From assembly GCA_015654475.1 (NCBI GenBank), contig JAATGV010000005.1:1-64000 (forward strand): 64,000 nt of DNA, written 5' to 3'. This DNA comes from Actinomycetales bacterium (GTDB taxonomy: Bacteria > Actinomycetota > Actinomycetes > Actinomycetales > Microbacteriaceae). The position numbers and the translations under genes are program-made. Below, in pieces: positions 3,079 through 63,595 of the stretch (positions within the stretch are counted from its first letter, which is position 1; each line of letters begins with the position of its first letter). The notes below the pieces were generated by a model, which worked only from the letters and a program-made list of their open reading frames with translations, ran no database searches and was not told where the DNA came from.

Positions 3079-3284
3079 TCTATGCGCAGATGTCCAGTGG
3101 GTTAACGCGTCGTCATTTTGGTTGACGAGGATGCTTTGACGACTGAGCTGACCTCGACCGTTTGGGCGCATCGCCTCGGTACGTGCGGTGATGCTGCTCC
3201 GGTCAGCGCGGATGCGTGAGCCAGGCATTTAGTGGCCCCACCCTGCGGCAGGTCGTGGGATACACGGAAACTAGGATGGGATCT

Positions 3285-3977
3285 GTGACCACAGCCAAAT
3301 CCTCCGCCCTTGCCACCCTCACTGATCGGCCTTTCGACGCCGTGCTCTTTGACAACGATGGAACGCTTGTGAGTTCGCTCGACAGCGTTGCCGAGGCGTG
3401 GCTGCTTTGGGCGAAAGAGTATGGAATCGACGAAAGCCAGCTCGTCAACATCCATGGCATTCCCGCAGAAGCCTCGGTGCTGCGCCTCGTCGGCGAGGAG
3501 CGAGCCCCCGAGGCGCTTGCCCGCATTCGCGAGATCGAGCTCAACTCGCCGATTCCCACCAAGGCCTTACCAGGATCCATTGACGCGTTGCTTGGCACCA
3601 TGGGCCACAACGCCATTGTCACTTCGGCAGACGCCGACCTCTTTCAACGTCGTGCGCGAGAGGCCGGCTTGCCGACTCCGGCTGTGACTGTGACCTATGG
3701 GGACGTCACCAACGGCAAGCCCGATCCCGAACCCTATCTCGTTGCCGCCAGGCGTCTCGGCGTCGATCCTGCCCGATGTCTCGTTGTCGAAGATGCCCCT
3801 GCGGGCGTTGCAGCCGGCCGAGCGGCGGGTGCGGCGGTGCTCGGCATCGGCGGGGTAACGGAGAACGCGTTGGACGGGGATGATCCGTTGGATGCAGACG
3901 CAGTCGTGCCGAATCTTGCGGCAGTGACGTTCAGCGTTGTGGATGGCGCGGTTTTTGTGCAGGAGGTCGTGCGGTGA
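3285..3977 (+). CDS. HAD-superfamily phosphatase (beta-phosphoglucomutase/sugar-phosphatase-like)
   Basis: This 230-residue HAD hydrolase has motif I as LFDNDGTLV (nucleophile and acid Asp), a helical cap, motif II with Thr-Ser (IVTSAD), the Lys of motif III in GKPDPEPY, and motif IV with VVEDAPAG. This layout matches subfamily IA phosphatases acting on small sugar phosphates such as phosphoglycolate, glycerol phosphate or 2-deoxyglucose-6-phosphate; the substrate is unknown. The GTG at 3285 is preferred because TAGGAT lies 7 nt upstream (leaderless) and AGGA also lies 8 nt upstream. Upstream in-frame starts at 3216 and 3276 are less convincing. It overlaps the next gene by 4 bp. Confidence 0.85.
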   Translation: MTTAKSSALATLTDRPFDAVLFDNDGTLVSSLDSVAEAWLLWAKEYGIDESQLVNIHGIPAEASVLRLVGEERAPEALARIREIELNSPIPTKALPGSIDALLGTMGHNAIVTSADADLFQRRAREAGLPTPAVTVTYGDVTNGKPDPEPYLVAARRLGVDPARCLVVEDAPAGVAAGRAAGAAVLGIGGVTENALDGDDPLDADAVVPNLAAVTFSVVDGAVFVQEVVR

Positions 3978-4921
3978 TAGTTGTCAGCGTCCCCGACGAG
4001 CAGACCCGGCAGCAGCTGTTGCCCGCGCCTGAAGGAATTCGGATCGTGGTATGGGATCTCTATTCGGCTCCATCCGAAGGCACCATCGACGACATCGCCG
4101 TGGTGCTCATTCCCCATTACCAACTGGATCGTGCCCCGTTTGCGCAGTTCGCCACTATGCAGAACCTGCAAATGATCCAGTTGCCTAGTTCAGGTTATGA
4201 GCACATCGTGTCATGGCTTCCTGATGGTGTGACGTTATGCAACGGCCGCGGAATACACAGCGAGGAGACCGCTGAGCTTGCCGTGGGACTCATGCTTGCA
4301 TCCTTGCGCGGAATCGCCGAACATGCGGTCAACGCCGTCACCGATCGTGGCTGGAACATGCGTATGCGCCGTTCTTTGTTTCGTAGCCGTGTGCTCATTG
4401 TGGGCTATGGATCAGTGGGGCAGGAGATCGCGCACAGGTTACAGGCGTTTGGTGCAGAGGTCGAGGCTGTTGCCCGCTCGCCCCGAGTTGTTGTCGGCGT
4501 ACGCGTACACGCCATGGACGACTTGCCGGACCTGCTGCCCACAGCAGACATCGTGACGCTCATTCTGCCGCTCAGTGCATCCACCCGTTCGCTGGTCGAC
4601 TCCGAATTCCTGGCACGAATGGCCGACGGTGCGCTTCTGGTCAATGTGGCTCGAGGTCCGATCGTCGATACCTCCGCCCTGCTCGCGGAGCTCATGTCTG
4701 GCCGACTACGTGCCGCATTGGATGTGACCGACCCAGAACCGCTGCCGAGCGATCATCCTTTGTGGCGCGCTCCAAATGTCATCATCACGCCGCATGAGGG
4801 TGGCAATACGACGGCAAGTGCGTTCAAGACGATCGAACTGATGGCTGCCCAGATCCAGCGACTCGCCGCAGGAACCGAACTCGAGAACGTCGTCGTCCCG
4901 GGGCGACTGGCTGCGTCCTAA
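3974..4921 (+). CDS. D-isomer-specific 2-hydroxyacid dehydrogenase
   Basis: This 315-residue cytoplasmic NAD(P)-dependent oxidoreductase reduces a 2-keto acid or oxidises a D-2-hydroxy acid. The Rossmann dinucleotide site is VLIVGYGSVGQEI (about residue 137). The catalytic triad of the family is visible: Arg in VNVARGPIVDT, Glu in DPEPLP and His in ITPHEGG. The GTG start overlaps the stop of the HAD phosphatase (GTGA), so the two are translationally coupled. The pair may act on one small phosphorylated or hydroxy-acid metabolite, but the substrate cannot be read from sequence. SerA-type regulatory domains are absent. Confidence 0.88.
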   Translation: MIVVSVPDEQTRQQLLPAPEGIRIVVWDLYSAPSEGTIDDIAVVLIPHYQLDRAPFAQFATMQNLQMIQLPSSGYEHIVSWLPDGVTLCNGRGIHSEETAELAVGLMLASLRGIAEHAVNAVTDRGWNMRMRRSLFRSRVLIVGYGSVGQEIAHRLQAFGAEVEAVARSPRVVVGVRVHAMDDLPDLLPTADIVTLILPLSASTRSLVDSEFLARMADGALLVNVARGPIVDTSALLAELMSGRLRAALDVTDPEPLPSDHPLWRAPNVIITPHEGGNTTASAFKTIELMAAQIQRLAAGTELENVVVPGRLAAS

Positions 4922-5058: not shown

Positions 5059-6252
5059 GTGATGGGTGAGTTCCAGCATGTGCGTCGCCGCGTCGTAGCG
5101 GTGATTCCCGCTCGTGGCGGCTCTAAAGGTGTCCCCCACAAGAATCTTCGTCCGGTTGCTGGCGTGCCCCTAGTGGTCCGATCCATCATCGCTGCGCGCG
5201 ATGCCAACCTCGTTGATGCCGTCTACGTTTCTACAGACGATCCGGCAATCACGGCACTCGCCGAGAGTTCGGGTGCCGAGGTGATCGCCCGCCCCGCAGA
5301 CATCGCAGGCGATCTTGCCACATCCGAGTCGGCTCTGTTGCATGCTCTCGACGCGATGGATTCGGCGGGAAATCCTGCCGATATCCTTGTCTTCATTCAG
5401 GCGACGAGTCCGTTTATCCGGTCGGAGCAAATCGACGAGGCTATTTCCCGCGTTGCGGCCGGAACTGAAGACGTTGTGTTCAGCGCGGTGCATAACGACG
5501 CATTCCTATGGCGTATTGACGAAAACGGAGCGTATGGAGTCAATCACGACTCGTCGGTGCGCCTACGCAGGCAGGACCGCGACCCCGAGTACCGCGAGAC
5601 CGGCGCGTTCTATGTGATGACGGTCAGCGGGTTCCGCGCCGCGAAACACCGATTTTTTGGCCGCGTCGGAGTTGAGCTCGTCGACGAACGGGATTCGCTC
5701 GAGATCGATACCCTCGAACAGATGCAGCTGGCTAGCCTGATCGCTGCAGGGCGCGAACGCCAGTCCGCAGTCTCGGGTGGCATCGACGTGGATGCGCTCA
5801 TCACCGACTTTGACGGCGTTCATACCGACGACTTGGTGCATGTTGACCAGCATGGCGTAGAAACCGTTGTAGTGAGCCGCTCGGATGGGATGGGTGTGCG
5901 TCTGTTGCGCGAGGCAGGCATTCCTGTCGCCATTGTTTCGACCGAGACGAACCCAGTTGTCACAGTTCGTGCCCGCAAATTGGGTGTGGATGTGGTGCAG
6001 GCGGTTAACGACAAAGCTGCTGCTGTGCGAGAATGGGCTGCGCGGATCGGCGTCGATGTGTCCCGCGTTGCCTTTATTGGCAACGACGTTAATGATCTTT
6101 CGGCACTCTCCATTGTGGGATGGCCGATTGCCGTGGCCGACGCGCATCCGCGCGTCGTTACCGCGGCTCGCATTCACCTTTCCCGGCGCGGCGGCGACGG
6201 CGCTGTTCGTGAAGCGAGTGAACTCATACTGAATAACCGGAAGGCTTTGTAA
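5059..6252 (+). CDS. neuA: Acylneuraminate cytidylyltransferase fused to a KdsC-like HAD phosphatase
   Basis: This 397-residue two-domain protein has an N-terminal domain (about residues 10-225) of the CMP-sialic acid synthetase family, with VIPARGGSKGVPHKNL for CTP binding, VYVSTDD and FIQATSPF. It would activate a nonulosonic acid (sialic, legionaminic or pseudaminic type) as a CMP-sugar. The C-terminal domain (about 235-390) is a KdsC/YrbI-type HAD phosphatase with DFDGVHTDD and IGNDVNDLSAL, which in related pathways removes the 9-phosphate made by NeuB-type enzymes. The same domain order occurs in animal CMAS. It overlaps neuB by 1 nt (TAATG), so the pathway steps are co-translated. Confidence 0.9.
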   Translation: MMGEFQHVRRRVVAVIPARGGSKGVPHKNLRPVAGVPLVVRSIIAARDANLVDAVYVSTDDPAITALAESSGAEVIARPADIAGDLATSESALLHALDAMDSAGNPADILVFIQATSPFIRSEQIDEAISRVAAGTEDVVFSAVHNDAFLWRIDENGAYGVNHDSSVRLRRQDRDPEYRETGAFYVMTVSGFRAAKHRFFGRVGVELVDERDSLEIDTLEQMQLASLIAAGRERQSAVSGGIDVDALITDFDGVHTDDLVHVDQHGVETVVVSRSDGMGVRLLREAGIPVAIVSTETNPVVTVRARKLGVDVVQAVNDKAAAVREWAARIGVDVSRVAFIGNDVNDLSALSIVGWPIAVADAHPRVVTAARIHLSRRGGDGAVREASELILNNRKAL

Positions 6253-7133
6253 TGACTAACCCAGTGCTCGTTGGCGACGTCCCCATTGGAGACAATCAGC
6301 CCACTTACATGATCGGTGAAATCGGCATCAACCATAATGGCGATGTCGAGATTGCAAAGAAGCTGATTGACGTTGCCGCCCTTGCAGGAGCGCAGTCGAT
6401 CAAGTTTCAGAAGCGCACTCCCGACATCTCCACGCCTGAGGCGCAGAAGAGCCAGATCCGTCAGACCCCATGGGGCGAGATGACATACCTCGAGTACAAG
6501 TACCGTGTCGAGTTCGGTCACGACGAGTACACCGAGATCGCTCGCTACGCAGCCGAAAAGGGTTTGCAGTGGTTTGCTTCACCATGGGATGTTCCCTCCG
6601 TTGCCTTCCTCGAAGAGTTCAATGTTCCTGTGCACAAGGTCGCGTCTGCGTCGATCACCGACTACGAACTGTTGCGTGCCTTGCGCGATACTGGCAAGCC
6701 GCTGATCCTCTCGACCGGCATGTCCACTTTCGAGCTCATCGACAAGGCCGTCGAGGTTGTCGGTACCGACAAGCTTGTGCTCATGCACGCCACGTCGACG
6801 TACCCGTTGCCGGAGGAAGAAGCTAACCTCCTCGCCATCCCCGCGCTCAAAGAGCGTTACGGTGTGCCGGTGGGCTACTCGGGTCACGAGCGTGGTCTGC
6901 AGATCTCCATTGCAGCTGTCGCCCTTGGCGCGGTTGCCGTGGAACGTCATATCACCCTCGATCGCACGATGTGGGGCTCGGACCACGCAGCGAGCCTTGA
7001 GCCGCACGGCCTCATGCAGCTCGTTCGCGACATCCGCATCATCGAGAAGGCCAAGGGCGACGGCGTCAAGCGTGTCATGCCGGGCGAAGTCGAGCCGATG
7101 AAGCGCCTGCGTCGCGTCGCGGACGAAGTGTAG
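6252..7133 (+). CDS. neuB: N-acetylneuraminate synthase family protein (NeuB-type, no SAF domain)
   Basis: This 293-residue TIM-barrel enzyme of the NeuB family condenses phosphoenolpyruvate with an N-acyl-hexosamine, or its 6-phosphate, to a nine-carbon ulosonic acid. Conserved elements are MIGEIGINHNGD near the start, IKFQKRTPD, KVASASITDYELL, LSTGMST, STYPLP, GYSGHERG and VERHITLDR, which includes metal and substrate ligands. Classical NeuB proteins are about 340-350 residues because of a C-terminal antifreeze-like SAF domain; this one ends right after the barrel. GGAAGG lies 7 nt upstream of the ATG. It follows neuA directly and precedes a putative transferase. Confidence 0.9.
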   Translation: MTNPVLVGDVPIGDNQPTYMIGEIGINHNGDVEIAKKLIDVAALAGAQSIKFQKRTPDISTPEAQKSQIRQTPWGEMTYLEYKYRVEFGHDEYTEIARYAAEKGLQWFASPWDVPSVAFLEEFNVPVHKVASASITDYELLRALRDTGKPLILSTGMSTFELIDKAVEVVGTDKLVLMHATSTYPLPEEEANLLAIPALKERYGVPVGYSGHERGLQISIAAVALGAVAVERHITLDRTMWGSDHAASLEPHGLMQLVRDIRIIEKAKGDGVKRVMPGEVEPMKRLRRVADEV

Positions 7134-7147
7134 CCTTCGTTTTCTTT

Positions 7148-7201
7148 CATGCCCCGGTCTGTGTGGCGTCGCCTGTGTGGCGGCGTGCAGGCCGGGGCAT
7201 G
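7148..7201 (+). terminator. GC-rich inverted repeat between neuB and the DUF6716 gene
   Basis: CATGCCCCGG (7148-7157) and CCGGGGCATG (7192-7201) are perfect 10-bp arms around a G/T-rich loop. No T-tract follows, so it could be an attenuating hairpin or an RNA-stability element within the operon rather than a full terminator. Confidence 0.45.
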
Positions 7202-7239
7202 TGTACGTTTCGCCATCCATCCATTTCAAAGGTTCTGTG

Positions 7240-8286
7240 ATGAAGGTTTTCGCTTTCGCCGACGCCGACTCGTTTGTCAAGTGGGGGGCCGCAACAGTCG
7301 ACGAGTTTCCGGCCGACGCGGAACTGTCGTTTTTTGTCGTGCAAAGCACAGCTCAAGCGAGTGAGCGGCAAGTGGATGTCGCAGTAGCCGGTACCCGAGT
7401 TGCCGGTGTGTGGCGAATGGTTAGCATTGAGCAGCTTCGAGACGAGTACCGGCGCATTCGACCCGATGTGGTGGTCGGCGCTGCACGAGGCTTCATCGTG
7501 CGAGTGCTGTTCGAATACCTGGTGGAGAATGTGCCAACTCGACCTGTGTTGGTGAGTGGTCTGCCTGGTATCTCTATTCCGGTTCTGCCAGGAGGGTCTC
7601 AGCACCGCGCAGCCGCGGACGTTTTTATCTTGCATAGCCGTAGGGAGGTCGCCGAGTATTCGGAATACTCCGTAAAGCGTGGACTCCCCGTCAACTACTT
7701 TCTCGGCACTTTGCCCTTTCTGCGGCATACGAATGCGGCCAACGCCAGCCCTCCAGACATCGATCAGGTCGCGCGACCAGACATCGTCTTCGCTGTACAA
7801 GCGTTGGTGCCGCGCCGCCGCGAGCAGCGTGCCGCGATCGCTGATGCACTGATTCGCACAGCGCGTGCGTTTCCGTCACGGCGCGTGGTGGTGAAGGTGC
7901 GGGCGCTCGCGAACGAAAGCCAGACGCATCCTGAAGCCTATCCATTTGACGCACTTATCGATGAGGTTCGCGGAAGGGGCGTGGATGTGCCGACGAACCT
8001 GGTGATCGAGGCCGGACCGATGGCCGAGCAGCTGGCACATGCGCATGCGATGGTGAGCGTCTCGTCGACCGCGTTGCTCGAGGCGATCGCACTGCAGATT
8101 CCGACGGTGGTGATCGACGAATTCGGTGTGAGCTCTGCGATGATCAACACGGTCTTTGAGGGAAGTGGGTTGTTTGGTGGCCTCGACGATCTTGAGCATG
8201 GCCGGTTTCGGCAGCCTGACTCGGACTGGCTGGATGAGAACTATTTTCATCCCCGGTCAGCCAACACGTGGCTGGCCGAGGTCTAA
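7240..8286 (+). CDS. DUF6716 putative glycosyltransferase (polysialyltransferase-like)
   Basis: This 348-residue protein starts at ATG 7240 (MKVFAFADADSF) with AAAGG upstream. An in-frame ATG at 7177 would add an unlikely leader. It belongs to a family seen beside nonulosonate genes in actinobacteria and is paralogous to the protein encoded at 62321-63595. Shared landmarks are the N-terminal FADADSFVKW (FDSQLKW in the paralogue), SVSSTALLEAIAL (TISSTAGLESIGY) and a C-terminal GSGLFGGLDDL...WLDENYFHP block (GSGLM...WLKDNFF). The two-lobed, GT-B-like pattern and location after neuA-neuB suggest transfer of the CMP-activated sugar onto a surface glycan. That role is inferred. Confidence 0.75.
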   Translation: MKVFAFADADSFVKWGAATVDEFPADAELSFFVVQSTAQASERQVDVAVAGTRVAGVWRMVSIEQLRDEYRRIRPDVVVGAARGFIVRVLFEYLVENVPTRPVLVSGLPGISIPVLPGGSQHRAAADVFILHSRREVAEYSEYSVKRGLPVNYFLGTLPFLRHTNAANASPPDIDQVARPDIVFAVQALVPRRREQRAAIADALIRTARAFPSRRVVVKVRALANESQTHPEAYPFDALIDEVRGRGVDVPTNLVIEAGPMAEQLAHAHAMVSVSSTALLEAIALQIPTVVIDEFGVSSAMINTVFEGSGLFGGLDDLEHGRFRQPDSDWLDENYFHPRSANTWLAEV

Positions 8287-27956: not shown

Positions 27957-28008
27957 TTTGGCGCGCTTGCGAATAAGCGGACTCGGGTTGGTTTTTCGGA
28001 AGGACTTC

Positions 28009-31000
28009 ATGGCTGGTCAAGCGTTCACTCGTAATCGCAAGCGTGGGCAGGGTCGGCACGGTCGCCGTAACGGCGAAATTAGGACCCTCATTGTCGCTCT
28101 GATTGGTATCGTGAGTATTTTGTTGGGGGGAGGGGGAGGCGTCTCTGCGGCGCTTGCCCTAGCTGATTCGTCAGCAAGCGCGCCTCAATACCTTTCGATT
28201 ACGAAGACCGTCGATGGTGCGGCTTCGGTTTCGCTCACCGCTGGCGAGTCTTTCACGTATCAGATCACAGTGAAGTGTTCTGAAGAGGACTGCGTCAACG
28301 CCACACTCAGCGATGCTTTGCCTGCCGATTTGGCAGGCTTCGCGATAACCGCCGTGAGTTCGGGTTCGTCGTCCGGCACCGCCGTACCCGTATCGTGGTC
28401 GGGGGGAAGCCAGCCAGCAGTAGTTGGTGCTGATACCGTTGTGACCGCAACTCCGGCCCAGTCTCTTGGCGGTGGTGAAACTGGTCTTACGCAAGGTTCC
28501 ACGTTCTATGTGAACCTCACCTTGCAGGTTCCTAATGACTTCTCTCCGCTCGATTCTCGAAACGGGAAAGCCATTGTCAACACGGCTGCTGCTGCGGCGG
28601 ATAATGCTGCCGATGTTGAGGATCAGGCAACCGTTACGGTATCTGTCGATCAGAAGCTCGCTGTCACACTGGACAAAGACTGGAGCCCATCGACGGCGAG
28701 TTACAGCCCAGCCTCGATCTCCACTATCACGCTGACCGCCACCAACGAATCGAACGTTTCGCTCGATTCGTTGGTCGTGCAAGACCCGAGAGCGGCGTTG
28801 TCGGCAGAGGGCGCAAGCACCCTTGACGTAAACAATCCCTTCCGCATCACTAACTTCGCAGGTTTCGACTCTTCGTCGACCTTGCCGGAAGGGGCTACCG
28901 CTGTGCGGGTTGACGCCTACGTTCAGCAGGGTGGTACATGGACTTGGGTGACCGGGGATGCGGGGGCGAGCTACGCATTGCCATCCGGAGTGAGTAACGG
29001 CGAAGTGGGAGGCCTACGTTTCACCTACATGGGCGCGGCGATCGAAATAGGTTCTCCGGCATCTGCAGTTATCAACCTGGCACAGCGCTCCACCGATCGC
29101 AATGACGATGCAGAGCTCTCGACTGTGAAAAGTTCTGTTGCGAATGTGGCGTCTGCAAAGGGCTCGCGCGGTGCTGCGTCGAGTCCTACCGTGCAGGATG
29201 ACGCGACGTTCACCGTTACCCCACTTGCTCTCGGCACGACCGTAGCAAAGAGCTTCGCCAGCCCGCGTATCCCCGCCGGTAACTCAACTGTGGCGACGGT
29301 CACGGCGAGGAATACCGATTCGGCGGTAAAGACCTTTGTCGTGAGCGACTATAACGCGACGACCCCGTTCTTCACAGATTTCGTCACCTTCGATGGCTTC
29401 ACTGCCGGAGTGAACTGGCCTCAGGGCGCAACCAGCGGGACGGTGAAGTATTACCTGCTTGGCGGAGGAACTGAGCAAAACTCCTTCGGTAACGGCGACG
29501 TGCCACCTAAACCCAGTGTAGATATCGCGGGGTTTGACCTGATCTTCACCTCGGCAAGCGACACCATTGAGACCAATGCGCGCGTGGACGCGAAGTTCGC
29601 CGTCGCAACGTCAAGCGGCGAGAACTTTGGCCTAGCGACAGCACTCTCGTCGACAAACACTGTCACGTCGACGGTCACTGCATCCAACGGCAGCTCTGAC
29701 ACCGATGACGATAGTGCAACCCTGACTCGCGTGAAGCCGGCAATCAGCGTGAACTTGACCAAGACCGTGCGTCCGACGGTGGCAGTACAGCCTGGCGAGC
29801 AAAGCGTCGTATCCCTCCTGTCCACAACGAGTTCAAGCTCTGACTACCTCAAGCCGACGACCATTGTCGTGGAAGATGCGTGGGGTGACGCGGAGAATGC
29901 AAACGGCTACTGGAACGCATTCAATCTCACCTCTATTCAGCCAACTCAAATTCCCTCGGGTGTGTCGCTGACCGTCGATGTGCAGAAAAGGGATGGCACC
30001 TGGGTGACCATCGCAACGGTTAGCTCGTCTGCTGATGTGCAGCTCTTCAATCTCGATAGCTCTGAGTTCGCCACCGCGCTGACAGCCGCGGAGGCTGGTC
30101 TCGTTCCAAGTGATCTTGTCGGGAGCCGCTTTACATTTGTCGGGTCCACCGAATTCGCCGCGTCGGCCACGGTCCGGCCCTACCTCGGCTTCACTGCCCG
30201 CTCTGTGCTTCGTAGTGATGGCACAACCCCGACGAATACTGATTCGAATACGCCAACGGAGTACACCAATACCGCCACCACTACAGGCAGCGGCAGAACA
30301 GAGGATGGCACACTTTTTTCAGATGACGACGATGACACCGCGGTTGCACCCGTCATCATCTACCCGTCCGGTGTTGGCGTCGCGGCAGTCAGCAAGGCGT
30401 GGGATAAGGATGTGAGTGGGAGTTCCGTCGGCTCCCAAAGTGGGGCTGGGACGTCGGTAGACGCTCAGTCTCAGGAGACGAGGGTCACTCATCTCAATTG
30501 GCGTGTCAGCAGTGGGTTCCAGGAGGTTGTCCTGAGCGACCCGAACAGTGCTGAAGCAACGCCGTTGCAGACAGTCTTCAATGCGTTCAATTTGAAGAGT
30601 ATCAACGCGATCGCTGCTTCCTCAACGTCATACGCGAATGGATGGTATCTCAAGTACGACACCATCTCGTCAATCGAGCTGTATAACGGGTCCGATTGGG
30701 TTCCGGTGGATGTGCCAACTGGAGGTTGGCAGAGTAGCGACGGAAGTTTCAAGGGCTACTCGCTCAGCGCGACTGAGCAGAGCACAACTCTCGGTGTCAG
30801 GATTACGTTGGTGCCCAACGACACCGCTCGATCGGCGGCACTCACTAGCGGATCAGGAGACCCATACGCTCCAGAGCCGGGCAGTGGTGTGGCCGCGAGT
30901 GCCTCGGACAGGATCTTTGATCTTACTTGGCAGCTTCGCAATACACTTCGCGTTCAGGGGACGAACGCATCCACATGGGTGACCGAAGACACCACCCTCA

Positions 31001-34000
31001 ATGGCGGAACGGGAGATGTCACGAACTCCGTCGGCCTTGCGGCAACGCCCTATAGCGGTGCTGTAGTCAGGGATAATGACAGCGATACGATATCGATCAT
31101 CGATCAGCCCCCGGGAGTCCGGGTAACCAAGAATGTCGCAGACAACGTACTCATCGTTCCTGCGCCGGGGACCGGAGGTACATACCCAACGACTTCCTAC
31201 ACGCTCAAAGCAACGAACGATTCGTCGACACGAGCACAGTTCGTCCGAGTTCTCGAACCTGCAATATGCTCCGATACCGATGCCTCGGCATGCCAGTCGG
31301 CGAACACGGCTGCGGGAGCAACCGGGAACCCATTCGGGAGTTTCACGGGAAGCGTGATCGATACCGCGGATGTGCCTAACCCGTTCAACAGGCAAGACAT
31401 CACCAAAGTGACGATCGCTGCAAGTGTGACAAGCGAGGTCGACCTGAGTAAATCCGTTGTGTGGTTGCTGAAGTACGATCGCACCGCCACTGGTGCGAAC
31501 AAATACACTGTCGTTCAGACGACCGCTGCAGCCGTCAATGCTCTCTCCGCCTCCGCCCTCGTCGACGTGGTAGGCATATCCGTCACATTCCAGGGATCTG
31601 ATCCGCTTGTCACGGGTGGCACGATCAGTTCTTCTAACAATTTGACGATCAAGCTCAATACTGTCGTTCGGTCGACTCTCCGCGACACGGGCGAAGACCA
31701 TGCGCTCACCGATGAAGTCACGTCGAACAACCGTGTGTTCGCCCAGTCGTATGACTTGGTCACGGGAGCCGATGTGCTGACGGGAGACGTCAGCTCCGCG
31801 CTGATCACGCTTTCGGGTGGCCTCATCGACATCGTTCCGACGAAGACCATCACTGACGGCAACGTCGTCGAGCCGAATCGTGCCGAGCCTCAGACCGTGA
31901 AGCTTTCAGCCAACCAGGGAACTTCGAGCGCACCCGCAAACAGGGTCGTTCTCGAGGACCGAGCAGACTCTGAGGAATTCTGGAATAGCGTGAATTTCGC
32001 CGGCCTGAGTTCTATCACGGCTCCCGCTGGAGCAGATCGAGTGCAGATCGATGTCTACGGGCCATTTGGCACGGACGGAGCATTGGAATGGACCGAGGGC
32101 ACGGAACAGCCCCTCGATTCCTATTCTTTGCCCGTGAGCACAGGTCAGTTTGAGGATGTACAGGGAATTCGGTTCACCTTCACTCGAGCCGACGGCTCGG
32201 TGTTCTCTGCGAGTAACCCGAACTGGAGCGCTAAGGCAGATTTCACAGTGCAGTTGCGCGAGACCGTGCGGGGCACGACTACTGCCGTGCAGTTCCCCGG
32301 ATCGGTGACCGATACCCTCTCAGCGCAGTCATTCGGCAAGCTTGATGCGTCGAACGTGGAAAAGGCGACCGATGATCTCACGTGGACAACGGGAACTCAC
32401 GTACTCAAACTCAACAAGCTGGCCAACGGTGGAGTTCGTACCGCGCAGGTTGGATCCATGATCCCCTGGGATATCACTGTGGCCAACGGCGGAACTGGGT
32501 ACCTTGATCTCGACGATATCGTCGATGCTCTGCCGCCCGCTCTCCTCTTCACCGGGGTCGGGCCGAATGATTCAACGCCAGCGGTGCAATTCACGCCAGA
32601 TTCTGCTTCCGGCAGCACACTGACGTCCGCTCCAAGTGTCGACTCTGCAGTGTCGGGACAGGTCTCCTTCAGTTGGCCAGCCGATGAGAACCGGATGCAA
32701 CCAGGCGAATCGGTGACGATTCGGATTTGGCTGGAATTGCAGCCAGGGCTCTCAAGCGGTCAAAGAGCCACCAATATGGTGACGGCCAATACGGTCCAGA
32801 ATCTTGACTCGTGCAGCGACATCGGTACGTCGGATGGCTCTGCTGGCGTCACTTTCGATTCCGCCCATCCGACAGCCTGCTCCACGAGCGACTACGTCGC
32901 GCCGACAACCGGCCCCAACCTGTTCGTCGTCAAGGGCGTTCTCGGCTCACTAGACGGGGCCATAAACCCCAAGAATCCGGATCAGGCCTGCACCCCGACG
33001 CTTACTGTCGCAGGCACGTCTTACTATCGCAACCCGTGCGTGGCGAACAGCACCATCGGCGGTACAGACTCTTGGGCCCTCCATCTCGTGAATGCTGGTA
33101 CGACCCGCGTGACGAGTGCGACGATTTTCGACCAACTGCCGACTGCTGACGATCGGTACCTTGTTTCGGGCAGTTCGCGCGGGTCTGACTATGCCGTCGC
33201 GCTACTCGATAGCATCATTGTCAGCGGCCCCGCCGACACCACGAAGGTGCTTCAGGTAACCACAAGTCCTGGTGTGTGTGTCGGCACGTGGGCGAACCTC
33301 GCCAACCAGGATCCTTGTGAGCAAAATGGTGAAATCTGGGACGATGCGGATGCCTCGACGGATTGGAGCGCTGTTACTGGCATTCGTGTGATTCTCAATT
33401 TCGCAGACACGGCGGATGGCGCGCTCATCCCCGGGCAGCAAGTTGATGTGACCTACTCGACCCGGAATGCGCCTGCGACTACGGCGAACCCTGATGGAGC
33501 GAGCATCGATGTGCCTGCCACCGATGAATATGCCTGGAACCAGTTCGGAGTCAAGTACAAAGACGCGAGCCAGGTTGCGTATAGCAAGATCGCACCAAAC
33601 GCTGTCGGAGTTCATCTGCGTACCGGGTCGATCTCGGTAACGAAGGCGCTGTCAGGTGGAGCGACCGAGTTTGCCCCTTCGACGATTACCGCAACTTCCA
33701 CATGTAGCGTTGACGGGGTCGACCTCACTTTTGATGGGGAGGCCTCGAAGGCTCTCACTTTGACCAAAGCGTCGGGTGGCAGCTATGCACCTGTGAGAGT
33801 GACCGGAATCCCCGTCGGATCGGATTGCTATGTTGCCGAAGACGGCTCGGTGGGTGCTTTTGGGGAGACCTCGCGTAGTGTCTCTGCCACAAAGGTGACT
33901 GTCCAGAGTCCGGACGGCTATGCGGCAAGTGACACCTTAGAGGCCGGCACTCCAAGTAATGACGTTCCTGTAGCACAAGCATTCGGCCTCCTAAACGAAT

Positions 34001-35112
34001 ATGACTGGTCTGGTCTGTCGATTACGAAGACCGTGGATACTACTGCGACGTCTGGCGACTTCGGACCGTTCACCTTCACCCTGTCGTGCGTAACATCGAG
34101 CGGCACTAACGTTCCGCTCGATGCGGGGGACTCATCTTTCGTCATTGGAGCTGGTGAAACGCATGTCGTCACTGGGAATACGATTCCTGTCGGTGCAACG
34201 TGTACCGTGGCAGAGGTCAACAGCAGCGCCAATGCAATCGCATACACCGGCGACAATGTCTCGGACAACGGGGATGGCACCGCTACGGTTGTTCCTGGCA
34301 GTTCCGCTGCCGCAGTGAACATCGTCAACAAGTACGATGCAGGCACATTCACGGTGGCCAAGGTGGTCGACGGGGCCGGAGCGAATGCCTATGGCAACGG
34401 CCCGTTCACCTTCTCCGCCACCTGTGTTTACATGTCGCAAACATTGCTCGACGTGACGTTCACGCTGGATGCAGGGCAGAGCAAGACATTTGGTGTCTAC
34501 CCCGCTGGAACTCGTTGTACAACTGCGGAGACAGATTCGGCAGGCGCGACATCGACAAGCGTCTCCCCGCAAGGCGGCGTGGTCGACATCGTGGCCGCGC
34601 AGACAAAATCGGCAGTCGTGACCTACACCAACACGTTCGACCTCGGTTCCATCAGTGCAACGAAGACCATCGCCGGCAAGTACGGGTCATATATGTCCGA
34701 CTTCGATTTCGCGTTCACGGTTGTCTGCACGTTCCAAGGCACGGAGGTGCTCGACGAGACTTTCAGCCTCTCAGGAGGGGAGAGCCGAAAGTTCTCGGCT
34801 ATTCCCGTAGGGAGTGAGTGCTCGATCACAGAGACAGACTCCTTGCATGCCGATTCTGTCGAATACTCTGTTGCCGATGGGAAGATCACACTCACCGAGG
34901 CAAAGCCTCAGGTGACCGTAGGCGTGACGAACAACTACGATACGCCGGAGAGCGTCACCGCAAATGGTATCTATCCTCCGGGATACGGCCCGCTTGTCAA
35001 CTCATCGGCAGGGGGATACCTCACGGCCGGTGTCGCTCTTGGCGTGAGCGGCATTGTCGCGGGATTGCTTGCGCTCTACTTCGGCTTGCGCCGACCCCGA
35101 CGCCAGCACTGA
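28009..35112 (+). CDS. Giant secreted multi-domain surface protein (DUF11-like and DUF5979-like repeats)
   Basis: This 2367-residue protein starts at an ATG with AAGGA 6-7 nt upstream. A basic N-terminus (FTRNRKRGQGRHGRR) and hydrophobic segment (LIVALIGIVSILLGGGGG) form a signal peptide. Eight or nine Ig-like, Ser/Thr-rich domains follow, beginning near residues 60, 214, 407, 577, 788, 1036, 1274, 1463 and 1636. Many open with a Lys-containing strand such as LDKDW, VAKSF, LTKTV, VSKAW, VTKNV and PTKTI. Four DUF5979-like domains start near 1872, 2003, 2114 and 2214. A final helix (about 2333-2360) and the tail RRPRRQH anchor the C-terminus. No LPXTG is seen. It is probably an adhesin or stalk. 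Confidence 0.85.
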   Translation: MAGQAFTRNRKRGQGRHGRRNGEIRTLIVALIGIVSILLGGGGGVSAALALADSSASAPQYLSITKTVDGAASVSLTAGESFTYQITVKCSEEDCVNATLSDALPADLAGFAITAVSSGSSSGTAVPVSWSGGSQPAVVGADTVVTATPAQSLGGGETGLTQGSTFYVNLTLQVPNDFSPLDSRNGKAIVNTAAAAADNAADVEDQATVTVSVDQKLAVTLDKDWSPSTASYSPASISTITLTATNESNVSLDSLVVQDPRAALSAEGASTLDVNNPFRITNFAGFDSSSTLPEGATAVRVDAYVQQGGTWTWVTGDAGASYALPSGVSNGEVGGLRFTYMGAAIEIGSPASAVINLAQRSTDRNDDAELSTVKSSVANVASAKGSRGAASSPTVQDDATFTVTPLALGTTVAKSFASPRIPAGNSTVATVTARNTDSAVKTFVVSDYNATTPFFTDFVTFDGFTAGVNWPQGATSGTVKYYLLGGGTEQNSFGNGDVPPKPSVDIAGFDLIFTSASDTIETNARVDAKFAVATSSGENFGLATALSSTNTVTSTVTASNGSSDTDDDSATLTRVKPAISVNLTKTVRPTVAVQPGEQSVVSLLSTTSSSSDYLKPTTIVVEDAWGDAENANGYWNAFNLTSIQPTQIPSGVSLTVDVQKRDGTWVTIATVSSSADVQLFNLDSSEFATALTAAEAGLVPSDLVGSRFTFVGSTEFAASATVRPYLGFTARSVLRSDGTTPTNTDSNTPTEYTNTATTTGSGRTEDGTLFSDDDDDTAVAPVIIYPSGVGVAAVSKAWDKDVSGSSVGSQSGAGTSVDAQSQETRVTHLNWRVSSGFQEVVLSDPNSAEATPLQTVFNAFNLKSINAIAASSTSYANGWYLKYDTISSIELYNGSDWVPVDVPTGGWQSSDGSFKGYSLSATEQSTTLGVRITLVPNDTARSAALTSGSGDPYAPEPGSGVAASASDRIFDLTWQLRNTLRVQGTNASTWVTEDTTLNGGTGDVTNSVGLAATPYSGAVVRDNDSDTISIIDQPPGVRVTKNVADNVLIVPAPGTGGTYPTTSYTLKATNDSSTRAQFVRVLEPAICSDTDASACQSANTAAGATGNPFGSFTGSVIDTADVPNPFNRQDITKVTIAASVTSEVDLSKSVVWLLKYDRTATGANKYTVVQTTAAAVNALSASALVDVVGISVTFQGSDPLVTGGTISSSNNLTIKLNTVVRSTLRDTGEDHALTDEVTSNNRVFAQSYDLVTGADVLTGDVSSALITLSGGLIDIVPTKTITDGNVVEPNRAEPQTVKLSANQGTSSAPANRVVLEDRADSEEFWNSVNFAGLSSITAPAGADRVQIDVYGPFGTDGALEWTEGTEQPLDSYSLPVSTGQFEDVQGIRFTFTRADGSVFSASNPNWSAKADFTVQLRETVRGTTTAVQFPGSVTDTLSAQSFGKLDASNVEKATDDLTWTTGTHVLKLNKLANGGVRTAQVGSMIPWDITVANGGTGYLDLDDIVDALPPALLFTGVGPNDSTPAVQFTPDSASGSTLTSAPSVDSAVSGQVSFSWPADENRMQPGESVTIRIWLELQPGLSSGQRATNMVTANTVQNLDSCSDIGTSDGSAGVTFDSAHPTACSTSDYVAPTTGPNLFVVKGVLGSLDGAINPKNPDQACTPTLTVAGTSYYRNPCVANSTIGGTDSWALHLVNAGTTRVTSATIFDQLPTADDRYLVSGSSRGSDYAVALLDSIIVSGPADTTKVLQVTTSPGVCVGTWANLANQDPCEQNGEIWDDADASTDWSAVTGIRVILNFADTADGALIPGQQVDVTYSTRNAPATTANPDGASIDVPATDEYAWNQFGVKYKDASQVAYSKIAPNAVGVHLRTGSISVTKALSGGATEFAPSTITATSTCSVDGVDLTFDGEASKALTLTKASGGSYAPVRVTGIPVGSDCYVAEDGSVGAFGETSRSVSATKVTVQSPDGYAASDTLEAGTPSNDVPVAQAFGLLNEYDWSGLSITKTVDTTATSGDFGPFTFTLSCVTSSGTNVPLDAGDSSFVIGAGETHVVTGNTIPVGATCTVAEVNSSANAIAYTGDNVSDNGDGTATVVPGSSAAAVNIVNKYDAGTFTVAKVVDGAGANAYGNGPFTFSATCVYMSQTLLDVTFTLDAGQSKTFGVYPAGTRCTTAETDSAGATSTSVSPQGGVVDIVAAQTKSAVVTYTNTFDLGSISATKTIAGKYGSYMSDFDFAFTVVCTFQGTEVLDETFSLSGGESRKFSAIPVGSECSITETDSLHADSVEYSVADGKITLTEAKPQVTVGVTNNYDTPESVTANGIYPPGYGPLVNSSAGGYLTAGVALGVSGIVAGLLALYFGLRRPRRQH

Positions 35113-62320: not shown

Positions 62321-63595
62321 CTAGTTTTTCCTTAAGAACCTTTTTGCTCGGTCTTTCAACGACTGGGGGAGGACGTCCTTGATGCTTTTCCGTTTGGTGG
62401 TGCTCTTGGATGCCTGAGCTCGAACTTTCTGCTGCGAGCTCGATGCGGCCTCGCCGTCCCGGCGCTGTGCCACGGCAACCTGCGACACGAAATAGTCAGT
62501 CGCCATCGCTTTGCTGAACGGACGCTGGTCGACCGGTAGCTGCAGTGCTTTGTTGATGGCGACGACAATCCGTTCGGCAGGGTCTGAGCCATCGGCAAAA
62601 AAGTTATCCTTGAGCCACTCAGGAGAGGGGTCGGTGAGGTTGTCGTCGATCACTTGATCGAACGTTCTCATCAGCCCGGAGCCGAGGAAAGCGTGGTTTC
62701 CATGCACTTCGCGCACGCCGAGATCGGTGATGAAGGCGGTTCTCACCCCGTAGCCGATGGATTCGAGGCCCGCCGTCGACGATATGGTCAACAACAGATC
62801 GATCGTCGGCAGAATCTCGACGATCGGCGTGTAGTCGACGACGAGATTGTCTGGATGCGGAATCGTCTTCAGGATCTCTTCGGGATGCACCTTCATCTGA
62901 TGCAGCGTGTCTTCGCCAGGGCGATGGCGGGGTTTGAGGATCACCTTCCTGTCGGGATGTCGGACGGCATAGTCGGCCAAACGCTCATACACATACCTTC
63001 GGTCGGAAGCAGACTTAGGGATGGTCGGCTGATCGGCGAAGAGGACGGTCTTGATCGGCGAGCGACGCAGGGGGCTGGCCGTAGCGGGCAGAATCGGAAG
63101 GCCGCTGAGCACTAAGCCTGTAGTCGGCAGGTCAAGGGAATGGGCGATCTGTTCGAATGTGCGGAGATCTGAACCTGCATTGACGGCGATCACATCACCC
63201 GCTGCACGATCCAAATAGCCCGAGACAATGCTATGGGTGATGATTCCCACCCAGCCGACCACAAAGACGGGGGGGTGTGCAGAGGTGCTGGTGACTCGAG
63301 TTTGCGTCTTAGCAAAGATCTCGGCCATCGCACCACCGGTGACGCCCAATACGACGACATCCGAGGATGTGCCGGCGATGACGATCTGGTCTACAGTAAG
63401 CGTCTCGACCTCGTCGATGCCGTTGTCGCTCAACTGCTGTTTCGACAGAGCACTGCGTTTGTCAGCAACGACGATGTATCGGCATTGAAAACCTTGCTCT
63501 GACAGCTTCTGCCCAATGCTGTGGACCCACTTCAATTGCGAATCGAAGGAACAGACGAGTAGAGCGGTGCGCTGAGGACTGCCTGCGGCAGACAA
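62321..63595 (-). CDS. DUF6716 putative glycosyltransferase, second paralogue
   Basis: This 424-residue paralogue of the protein encoded at 7240-8286 is longer by a basic C-terminal tail (RAQASKSTTKRKS and KDRAKRFLRKN) that could bind membrane. Shared landmarks include VCSFDSQLKWVHS, VILKPRHRPGEDTLHQ (KVRALANESQTHPEA in the paralogue), LLLTISSTAGLESIGYG and GSGLMRTFDQV with WLKDNFF. It resembles polysialyltransferase-like GT-B proteins. The TTG start is uncertain: AAGGAGG lies 13 nt upstream, while in-frame ATC codons sit 1 and 4 nt after it. It is divergent from a GT2 gene, so the pair may build or modify a surface glycan. Confidence 0.78.
   Translation of the reverse strand: MSAAGSPQRTALLVCSFDSQLKWVHSIGQKLSEQGFQCRYIVVADKRSALSKQQLSDNGIDEVETLTVDQIVIAGTSSDVVVLGVTGGAMAEIFAKTQTRVTSTSAHPPVFVVGWVGIITHSIVSGYLDRAAGDVIAVNAGSDLRTFEQIAHSLDLPTTGLVLSGLPILPATASPLRRSPIKTVLFADQPTIPKSASDRRYVYERLADYAVRHPDRKVILKPRHRPGEDTLHQMKVHPEEILKTIPHPDNLVVDYTPIVEILPTIDLLLTISSTAGLESIGYGVRTAFITDLGVREVHGNHAFLGSGLMRTFDQVIDDNLTDPSPEWLKDNFFADGSDPAERIVVAINKALQLPVDQRPFSKAMATDYFVSQVAVAQRRDGEAASSSQQKVRAQASKSTTKRKSIKDVLPQSLKDRAKRFLRKN

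Follow-up and report, generated by a model that had tools for sequence, protein, structure and literature searches.

Three adjacent genes in a small actinobacterial genome raise a two-part question: which sialic-acid-like sugar do they make, and are they sufficient to make and transfer it? The genes lie on the plus strand, between positions 5059 and 8286 of a 64,000-nucleotide stretch of DNA that comprises positions 1 to 64,000 of contig JAATGV010000005.1 (assembly GCA_015654475.1) of an Actinomycetales bacterium of the family Microbacteriaceae. This whole stretch is called the window here, and the genome that harbours it has 2.41 Mb in 42 contigs and is 98.3% complete. A preliminary description had placed at this position a compact operon for the synthesis, dephosphorylation, cytidine monophosphate (CMP) activation and transfer of a nonulosonic acid. 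All three genes are present where it put them, and the domain matches agree with its first three predicted steps. We consider it likely that the genes make the sugar and carry out the first transfer in the actinomycete teichulosonic acid pathway, in which the sugar is 3-deoxy-D-glycero-D-galacto-nonulosonic acid (Kdn). The evidence consists of predicted domains, motif residues, a conserved neighbourhood, the presence of ManA and three unmatched 2-epimerase families, all read from sequence. Pathways of this type have been described before in Streptomyces and organisms related to it; here one is probably encountered in an organism of the same phylum with a small genome, and its polymer genes lie in two places.

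The first gene (5059..6252, plus strand) encodes a protein of 397 residues in which, as had been described, a NeuA-type cytidylyltransferase (about residues 1-235) is fused to a haloacid dehalogenase (HAD) domain of the KdsC/KDN-9-phosphate phosphatase type (about residues 240-395). In Pfam the match to CTP_transf_3 (E = 1.1e-23) is followed by HAD matches (PF08282, E = 2.4e-10); the NCBIfam matches are to a PseF-type cytidylyltransferase and a KDN-9-phosphate phosphatase/KdsC-type HAD, each of them below its curated cut-off. The NeuA half finds its best PDB match in 9t4z (E = 9.2e-35), a chain that bears the label PpNeuA without an organism name; no mention of PpNeuA was found in the literature searched by term. 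For the HAD half the PDB matches are a putative HAD hydrolase (3mmz, E = 9.4e-41), KdsC proteins, and 3e81 with its relatives; we take the 3e81 chains to be a phosphatase of Bacteroides thetaiotaomicron. The stop codon of this gene (TAA, 6250-6252) overlaps by one base the start codon (ATG, 6252) of the second gene (6252..7133, plus strand), which encodes a NeuB of 293 residues, predicted to be a Kdn-9-phosphate synthase acting on mannose-6-phosphate and phosphoenolpyruvate. It matches PF03102 over all 241 model positions (E = 1.7e-80, 270.4 bits; cut-off 22.1 bits). The earlier observation that this NeuB is SAF-less holds: no Pfam match to the SAF domain was found in it and the protein ends 20 residues past the NeuB match. 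In every one of 100 loci, a set in which some genomes are counted twice, the protein continues for no more than 18 residues beyond the NeuB match, so that the absence of SAF characterises the group and is not due to truncation in this genome. The best PDB match, the sialic acid synthetase 6ncs (E = 4.5e-50), is an equally short chain of 290 residues (native SAF status not given).

The expected motif residues are for the most part conserved. The NeuA elements PARGGS...KN, RRQ and E.D and the HAD elements DFDG..TD, S/T, K and GND.ND recur in almost every one of about 100 homologous domains (again with some genomes counted twice), as do NeuB residues E23, K51, Q53, K129, H212, E231, H233 and D244 in nearly all homologues among up to 101 sequences. 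We presume that these residues have the catalytic roles usually assigned to them. In several stretches the window NeuB may also resemble the animal 9-phosphate synthase NANS.

What, then, is the substrate of this NeuB? The preliminary description had suggested a precursor from elsewhere or a plain hexosamine phosphate, and the gene content of the genome does not favour the latter. One ManA (mannose-6-phosphate isomerase) is encoded in the window genome. No match was found there to the UDP-N-acetylglucosamine (UDP-GlcNAc) 2-epimerase family (PF02350), to NanE (PF04131) or to the N-acetylglucosamine 2-epimerase family (PF07221), for which the same searches were positive in 11, 8 and 2, respectively, of 14 control genomes. 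Since ManA is present and the three 2-epimerase families are unmatched, the precursor is most likely mannose-6-phosphate and the product most likely Kdn. Among 17 genomes that carry the family of the third gene, DUF6716 (window genome included), ManA occurs in all 17 and NanE in three, two of these over the cut-off. N-acetylneuraminic acid (Neu5Ac) could be made by a similar 9-phosphate route, from N-acetylmannosamine-6-phosphate by way of Neu5Ac-9-phosphate; a 9-phosphatase-type domain is indeed present, and the NeuB scores best with the N-acetylneuraminate synthase model TIGR03569 (265.8 bits over model positions 1-277 of 329), though under the equivalog cut-off of 399.65. The unmatched epimerase families, the scarcity of NanE among the DUF6716 genomes and the missing SAF domain all speak against this route; in the NeuB of Neisseria the SAF domain contacts the N-acetyl group of N-acetylmannosamine (ManNAc). 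We therefore regard Neu5Ac as an improbable product.

The fused phosphatase bears on two further candidates. Legionaminic or pseudaminic acid would be in keeping with the NeuA half, which scores best with PseF (138.2 bits; cut-off 205.7), and with a match of the NeuB to PseI (215.5 bits; cut-off 340.25). These are 9-deoxy sugars; lacking a 9-hydroxyl they can carry no 9-phosphate and need no 9-phosphatase, and the fused phosphatase, pointless in such a pathway, implies a 9-phosphate intermediate and so argues against them. The conserved neighbours are transferases as far as they are annotated, which covers part of the neighbours, and no search of the genome was aimed at the dehydratases and aminotransferases that such routes use. 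Either product seems to us highly improbable. An eight-carbon acid similar to 3-deoxy-D-manno-octulosonic acid, or another ulosonate, would suit the HAD half about as well as Kdn does: the top-scoring model is KDN-9-phosphate phosphatase (NF058599, 105.1 bits against an equivalog cut-off of 180), and KdsC scores 104.0 bits. The synthase belongs to the NeuB family, however, the cytidylyltransferase half prefers PseF over KdsB-type models, and the characterised Kdn-9-phosphate synthetase of Prymnesium, for which mannose-6-phosphate is reported as the sole substrate among seven sugars, rejects arabinose-5-phosphate (PMC6200933). Such a product is scarcely to be expected.

Several results count against assigning Kdn. 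The NeuB and the HAD domain miss the NCBIfam equivalog cut-offs, so that the substrate is not readable from their sequences, and the near-equal KdsC score points the same way. PF02350 is present in 4 of the 17 DUF6716 genomes, and an epimerase that went unrecognised could exist in the window genome, whose assembly is 98.3% complete and in 42 contigs. With these points included, Kdn is the best-supported product and a probable one, on grounds of genomic context and not of a sequence signature.

Is the third gene the transferase, as had been suggested? It encodes a DUF6716 protein, here called 'a' (7240..8286, plus strand; PF20471, E = 8.8e-117, 390.3 bits; cut-off 27 bits). The gene itself was correctly recognised; ATG 7240 is a likelier start than GTG 7177, as AAAGG lies upstream of it and the homologues begin at the same point. 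For structure prediction, 70 full-length regions were reduced to 35 non-redundant ones, of which 33 were aligned with the two DUF6716 proteins of the window to give 35 sequences. The AlphaFold2 model built from this alignment has a mean pLDDT (predicted local distance difference test) of 92 and displays a GT-B glycosyltransferase fold. Of the solved structures that the fold searches listed, UDP-GlcNAc 2-epimerases come nearest to it (Z up to 20.1, root mean square deviation 3.9 over 310 residues); UGT-type sugar transferases appear among further epimerases at Z 17-18, and the polysialyltransferase 5wcn is at Foldseek rank 39 (E = 3.9e-7).

Given this fold similarity, which is strong in itself, and with PF02350 unmatched in the genome, DUF6716 might be a hidden NeuC-type epimerase that provides ManNAc and not a transferase at all. 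We aligned its secondary structure by hand, without superposition, with that of four epimerases. In this alignment the epimerase columns D96, E118, E131 and H205 (A2), in which we take the Asp, the two Glu and the His to be catalytic, correspond to DUF6716 positions 83, 107, 120 and 187. In all 35 DUF6716 sequences there is no acid at 83, G at 107, no acid at 120 and Q at 187; position 120 is the least certain of these columns, as 19 of the 35 have an acid three residues earlier. In addition, hhalign detects no relation between DUF6716 and the epimerase profile (probability 2.3), other GT-B transferases score close behind the epimerases, and a route through free ManNAc would have no need for a phosphatase. 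An epimerase role is thus quite unlikely. DUF6716 has an invariant set of its own, which includes K219, R221, E226, H230, S275, S276 and E281, all in the C-terminal half, with which GT-B enzymes bind the donor nucleotide. The apparent absence of the epimerase residues together with this C-terminal set leads us to prefer the reading of DUF6716 as a predicted transferase. A search of PDB sequences with the DUF6716 profile gave nothing significant (top match CalG4, E = 0.033), and no mention of DUF6716 was found in the literature searched by term.

The preliminary description had proposed searching other genomes for the three-gene neighbourhood, and it does recur. NeuB homologues were scanned in one genome per species, and the best 80 of 579 loci in named genomes, 73-77% identical, were kept; they span Nonomuraea, other Streptosporangiaceae, Isoptericola, Cellulomonas, Jonesia, Aeromicrobium, Sediminivirga, Thermobifida and others. 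Flanks were scored up to 8 kb around NeuB, and contig ends clip some loci, so that the counts are lower bounds: among these best 80 of 579 loci NeuA is found near NeuB in at least 78, HAD in at least 77, DUF6716 in at least 75, a family 2 glycosyltransferase (GT2) in at least 72, a polysialyltransferase-family protein (POLYST, PF07388) in at least 71 and a GT52-like gene in at least 64. NeuA and NeuB are within one open frame in 69 of the 80 loci, with the HAD included in 68, which gives proteins of about 690 residues (checked with Pfam for L003); two of the 11 'separate' loci (L017 and L078) are clipped by contig ends and cannot be judged.

Starting from DUF6716 leads to the same neighbourhood. 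Two sets of genomes were drawn, 396 from the phylum and 40 from relatives, each count including the window genome. In all 17 over-cut-off genomes of the phylum draw, NeuA or NeuB is no more than about 1.5 kb away from one or more DUF6716 copies; the same is true of four of six further ones in the relatives draw, 21 of 23 overall. This association is not due to chance, and it makes DUF6716 a good candidate for an as yet unassigned transferase of actinomycete wall polymers. Against the association, neither NeuA nor NeuB was seen in this stretch at two second copies of DUF6716 (L093, and L108 in the window genome), in two relatives (L131, L133) or at the six DUF6716 matches that stay under the cut-off (L099-L103, L135). 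The family is over the cut-off in 17 of 396 genomes of the phylum draw, 7 of 40 of the relatives draw and 5 of 25 within the family of the window genome, which includes genomes of 0.9-1.5 Mb. Such patchiness is what one would expect of a surface polymer that varies between genomes. The E. coli control genome also has a DUF6716 match over the Pfam cut-off, a surprise given the otherwise actinobacterial occurrence seen here.

Do the three genes suffice? They had been taken to cover synthesis, dephosphorylation, activation and transfer; the sugar steps stand as predictions, but further putative polymer genes are located elsewhere. The system is split in the window genome between two loci about 54 kb apart, the second of which lies at 62.3-66.2 kb. 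It holds a second DUF6716 gene, 'b' (62321..63595, minus strand; PF20471, E = 5.1e-77, 259.6 bits), whose product and 'a' share 24% identity when aligned. A GT2 gene that extends across the window end (contig 63669-64763) and a POLYST gene beyond that end (contig 64700-66202), both recognised by domain matches, run divergently from 'b'. The same DUF6716-b/GT2/POLYST arrangement directly adjoins NeuA and NeuB in four genomes (L119-L122). The teichulosonic acid gene set, neuA/neuB with GT2, POLYST and DUF6716, is therefore found in the window genome, over two loci. NeuB is single-copy there, and two LytR-CpsA-Psr matches lie elsewhere in the genome.

In the pathway that we propose, ManA would provide mannose-6-phosphate, which the SAF-less NeuB would condense with phosphoenolpyruvate to Kdn-9-phosphate; the HAD domain would release Kdn and the NeuA domain convert it to CMP-Kdn. 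DUF6716 'a', with DUF6716 'b', the GT2 and the POLYST protein, may then assemble a Kdn-containing, phosphate-free polymer, and LytR-CpsA-Psr enzymes may attach it to the wall. The substrate, the Kdn product, the choice of the transferase that would move Kdn and the wall attachment are the parts of this scheme that we infer. The same sequence of sugar steps, from mannose-6-phosphate and phosphoenolpyruvate to CMP-Kdn, is reported for B. thetaiotaomicron and Prymnesium parvum, with separate enzymes, and no DUF6716 context appears in the excerpted parts of that paper (PMC6200933).

The preliminary description considered sialic-acid-like sugars poorly described in this group. This may be true of the enzymology at most, and is not true of the chemistry and genetics. 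In Streptomyces the main polymer of the wall is reported to be a teichulosonic acid that contains Kdn (PMC11481543, PMC7831098), and that of S. coelicolor is described as phosphate-free, with galactose and Kdn (PMC7831098; PMC11481543). One paper, citing Ostash et al. 2014, assigns teichulosonic acid to SCO4873-SCO4882 (PMC13011467), and another places neuAB within SCO4873-81 (PMC2267785); control by PhoP under phosphate limitation is reported for S. coelicolor (PMC13011467, PMC2267785). The SCO4873-SCO4882 region shares with our loci neuAB, a GT2 and further conserved proteins, and also, as we infer, the order of SCO4877-4882. The window genome differs from it in having the genes in two loci and two DUF6716 paralogues, and in that no GT52-like gene was found, by a weak test.

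The orthologue table for Planobispora rosea gives SCO4877 as hypothetical, SCO4878 as GT2, SCO4879 as hypothetical, SCO4880 as sialic acid synthase and SCO4882 as hypothetical (PMC8269224). Its locus-tag order agrees with that of GT52-like, DUF6716, POLYST and GT2 in the P. rosea JCM 3166 locus (L022), in which NeuB is 76% identical to ours and DUF6716, GT2 and POLYST are nearby; the P. rosea cluster is reported to be expressed like PhoP-activated genes (PMC8269224). In the clusters of P. rosea and other Streptosporangiaceae a single open frame of about 690 residues spans NeuA, HAD and NeuB, whereas the window has NeuB separate. In three genomes (L119, L120 and L122) the order is GT52-like, NeuB, NeuA-HAD, DUF6716, divergent GT2 and POLYST; a fourth (L121) is arranged likewise, with no HAD detected. 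Outside the phylum, neuB of the Serratia marcescens KL1/KL2 neuAB loci is needed for sialic acid, and the surface polymer has Kdn and some Neu5Ac; this is a Gram-negative capsule, and its NeuB carries a COG1082 domain (PMC9000132). Nor is fusion in itself new, since Fusobacterium nucleatum is on record with a fusion of NeuB and NeuA (FN1686; PMC4045943).

Other observations detract from the proposal that the system as a whole is a teichulosonic acid pathway. Not every locus has the phosphatase: a single NeuA-NeuB frame with no HAD detected is present in L018 (Sediminivirga; 6.8-8.9 kb) and in L121 (about 7.0-9.1 kb), in which the phosphatase may be encoded at another place or may not be needed. 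No GT52-like gene was matched in the window genome, by a search that lacked a positive control. The order seen in L119, L120 and L122 would correspond to SCO4882 down to SCO4877, a mapping made by gene order, in which SCO4879 would be the DUF6716 gene. Finally, two papers label the genes of the region as (putative) teichuronic acid genes (PMC8269224, PMC2267785).

If our reading is correct, it has uses beyond this genome. A published survey could not separate Kdn from Neu5Ac synthases owing to gene annotation (PMC10483923). The joint occurrence of ManA, a fused phosphatase and a NeuB that lacks SAF, in a genome devoid of 2-epimerases, is a candidate rule for recognising Kdn makers. More tentatively, and with slightly less than an even chance in our estimation of being right on both counts, DUF6716 would be a new GT-B family of CMP-Kdn transferases on a UDP-GlcNAc 2-epimerase scaffold without the catalytic acids, and a NeuB that lacks SAF and is joined, by fusion or by coupling, to NeuA and phosphatase would be the signature of Kdn derived from mannose-6-phosphate. 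Such a signature would tell Kdn from Neu5Ac makers in genomes, and Kdn wall polymers would extend to patchily distributed small-genome actinobacteria. Polymers of this kind are thought to save phosphate in actinomycete walls by replacing teichoic acids.

The two glycosyltransferase families that accompany DUF6716 were also aligned. For POLYST (A3), 70 regions gave 25 kept and 22 printed, of which 15 were used with L110 and a stretch of L064; the best PDB match is SiaD (E = 0.02). For the GT52-like family (A4), 64 regions gave 21 kept, of which 18 were used. Its members (for example L064:11280-12278) have conserved DDG, PHRR and LPST motifs, and it was after its motifs that we named the family; no Pfam or NCBIfam match was found in the members tried and there was no convincing PDB match. 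DUF6716 has no significant profile match to either alignment.

The description of the three genes as a compact operon holds for the one-base overlap of NeuA-HAD and NeuB and is not established for the unit as a whole, as 106 bases separate NeuB (end 7133) from DUF6716 (start 7240). This gap contains a very stable stem-loop of 23 pairs (7148..7201, plus strand), whose fold has -45.9 kcal/mol where shuffled sequences average -27.8 (z = -6.1). It is followed by no clear T run, and its 13-base arm has no copies in the window beyond its own two arms, at up to 2 mismatches; it is possibly an attenuator or processing site. The G+C content of the three-gene stretch (0.597) matches that of the window (0.601), and composition thus gives no sign of foreign origin. 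Directly upstream, a HAD_2 gene (3216-3977) and a D-2-hydroxyacid dehydrogenase gene (3974-4921) overlap by four bases. They were considered as members of the unit and rejected, as they were found in none of the 80 NeuB loci, for which flanks of up to 8 kb were covered and contig ends clip some, nor in L112-L122. Downstream of the second locus are membrane glycosyltransferase-like and flippase-like membrane proteins, and contig positions 66248-74146 encode an Ig-like repeat protein, a DUF2142 membrane protein, a polysaccharide pyruvyl transferase, an LPG-synthase-TM protein, a nitroreductase and a GT2, possibly another surface-polymer cluster. Elsewhere in the window, an open reading frame of 2384 residues occupies positions 27958-35112 on the plus strand.

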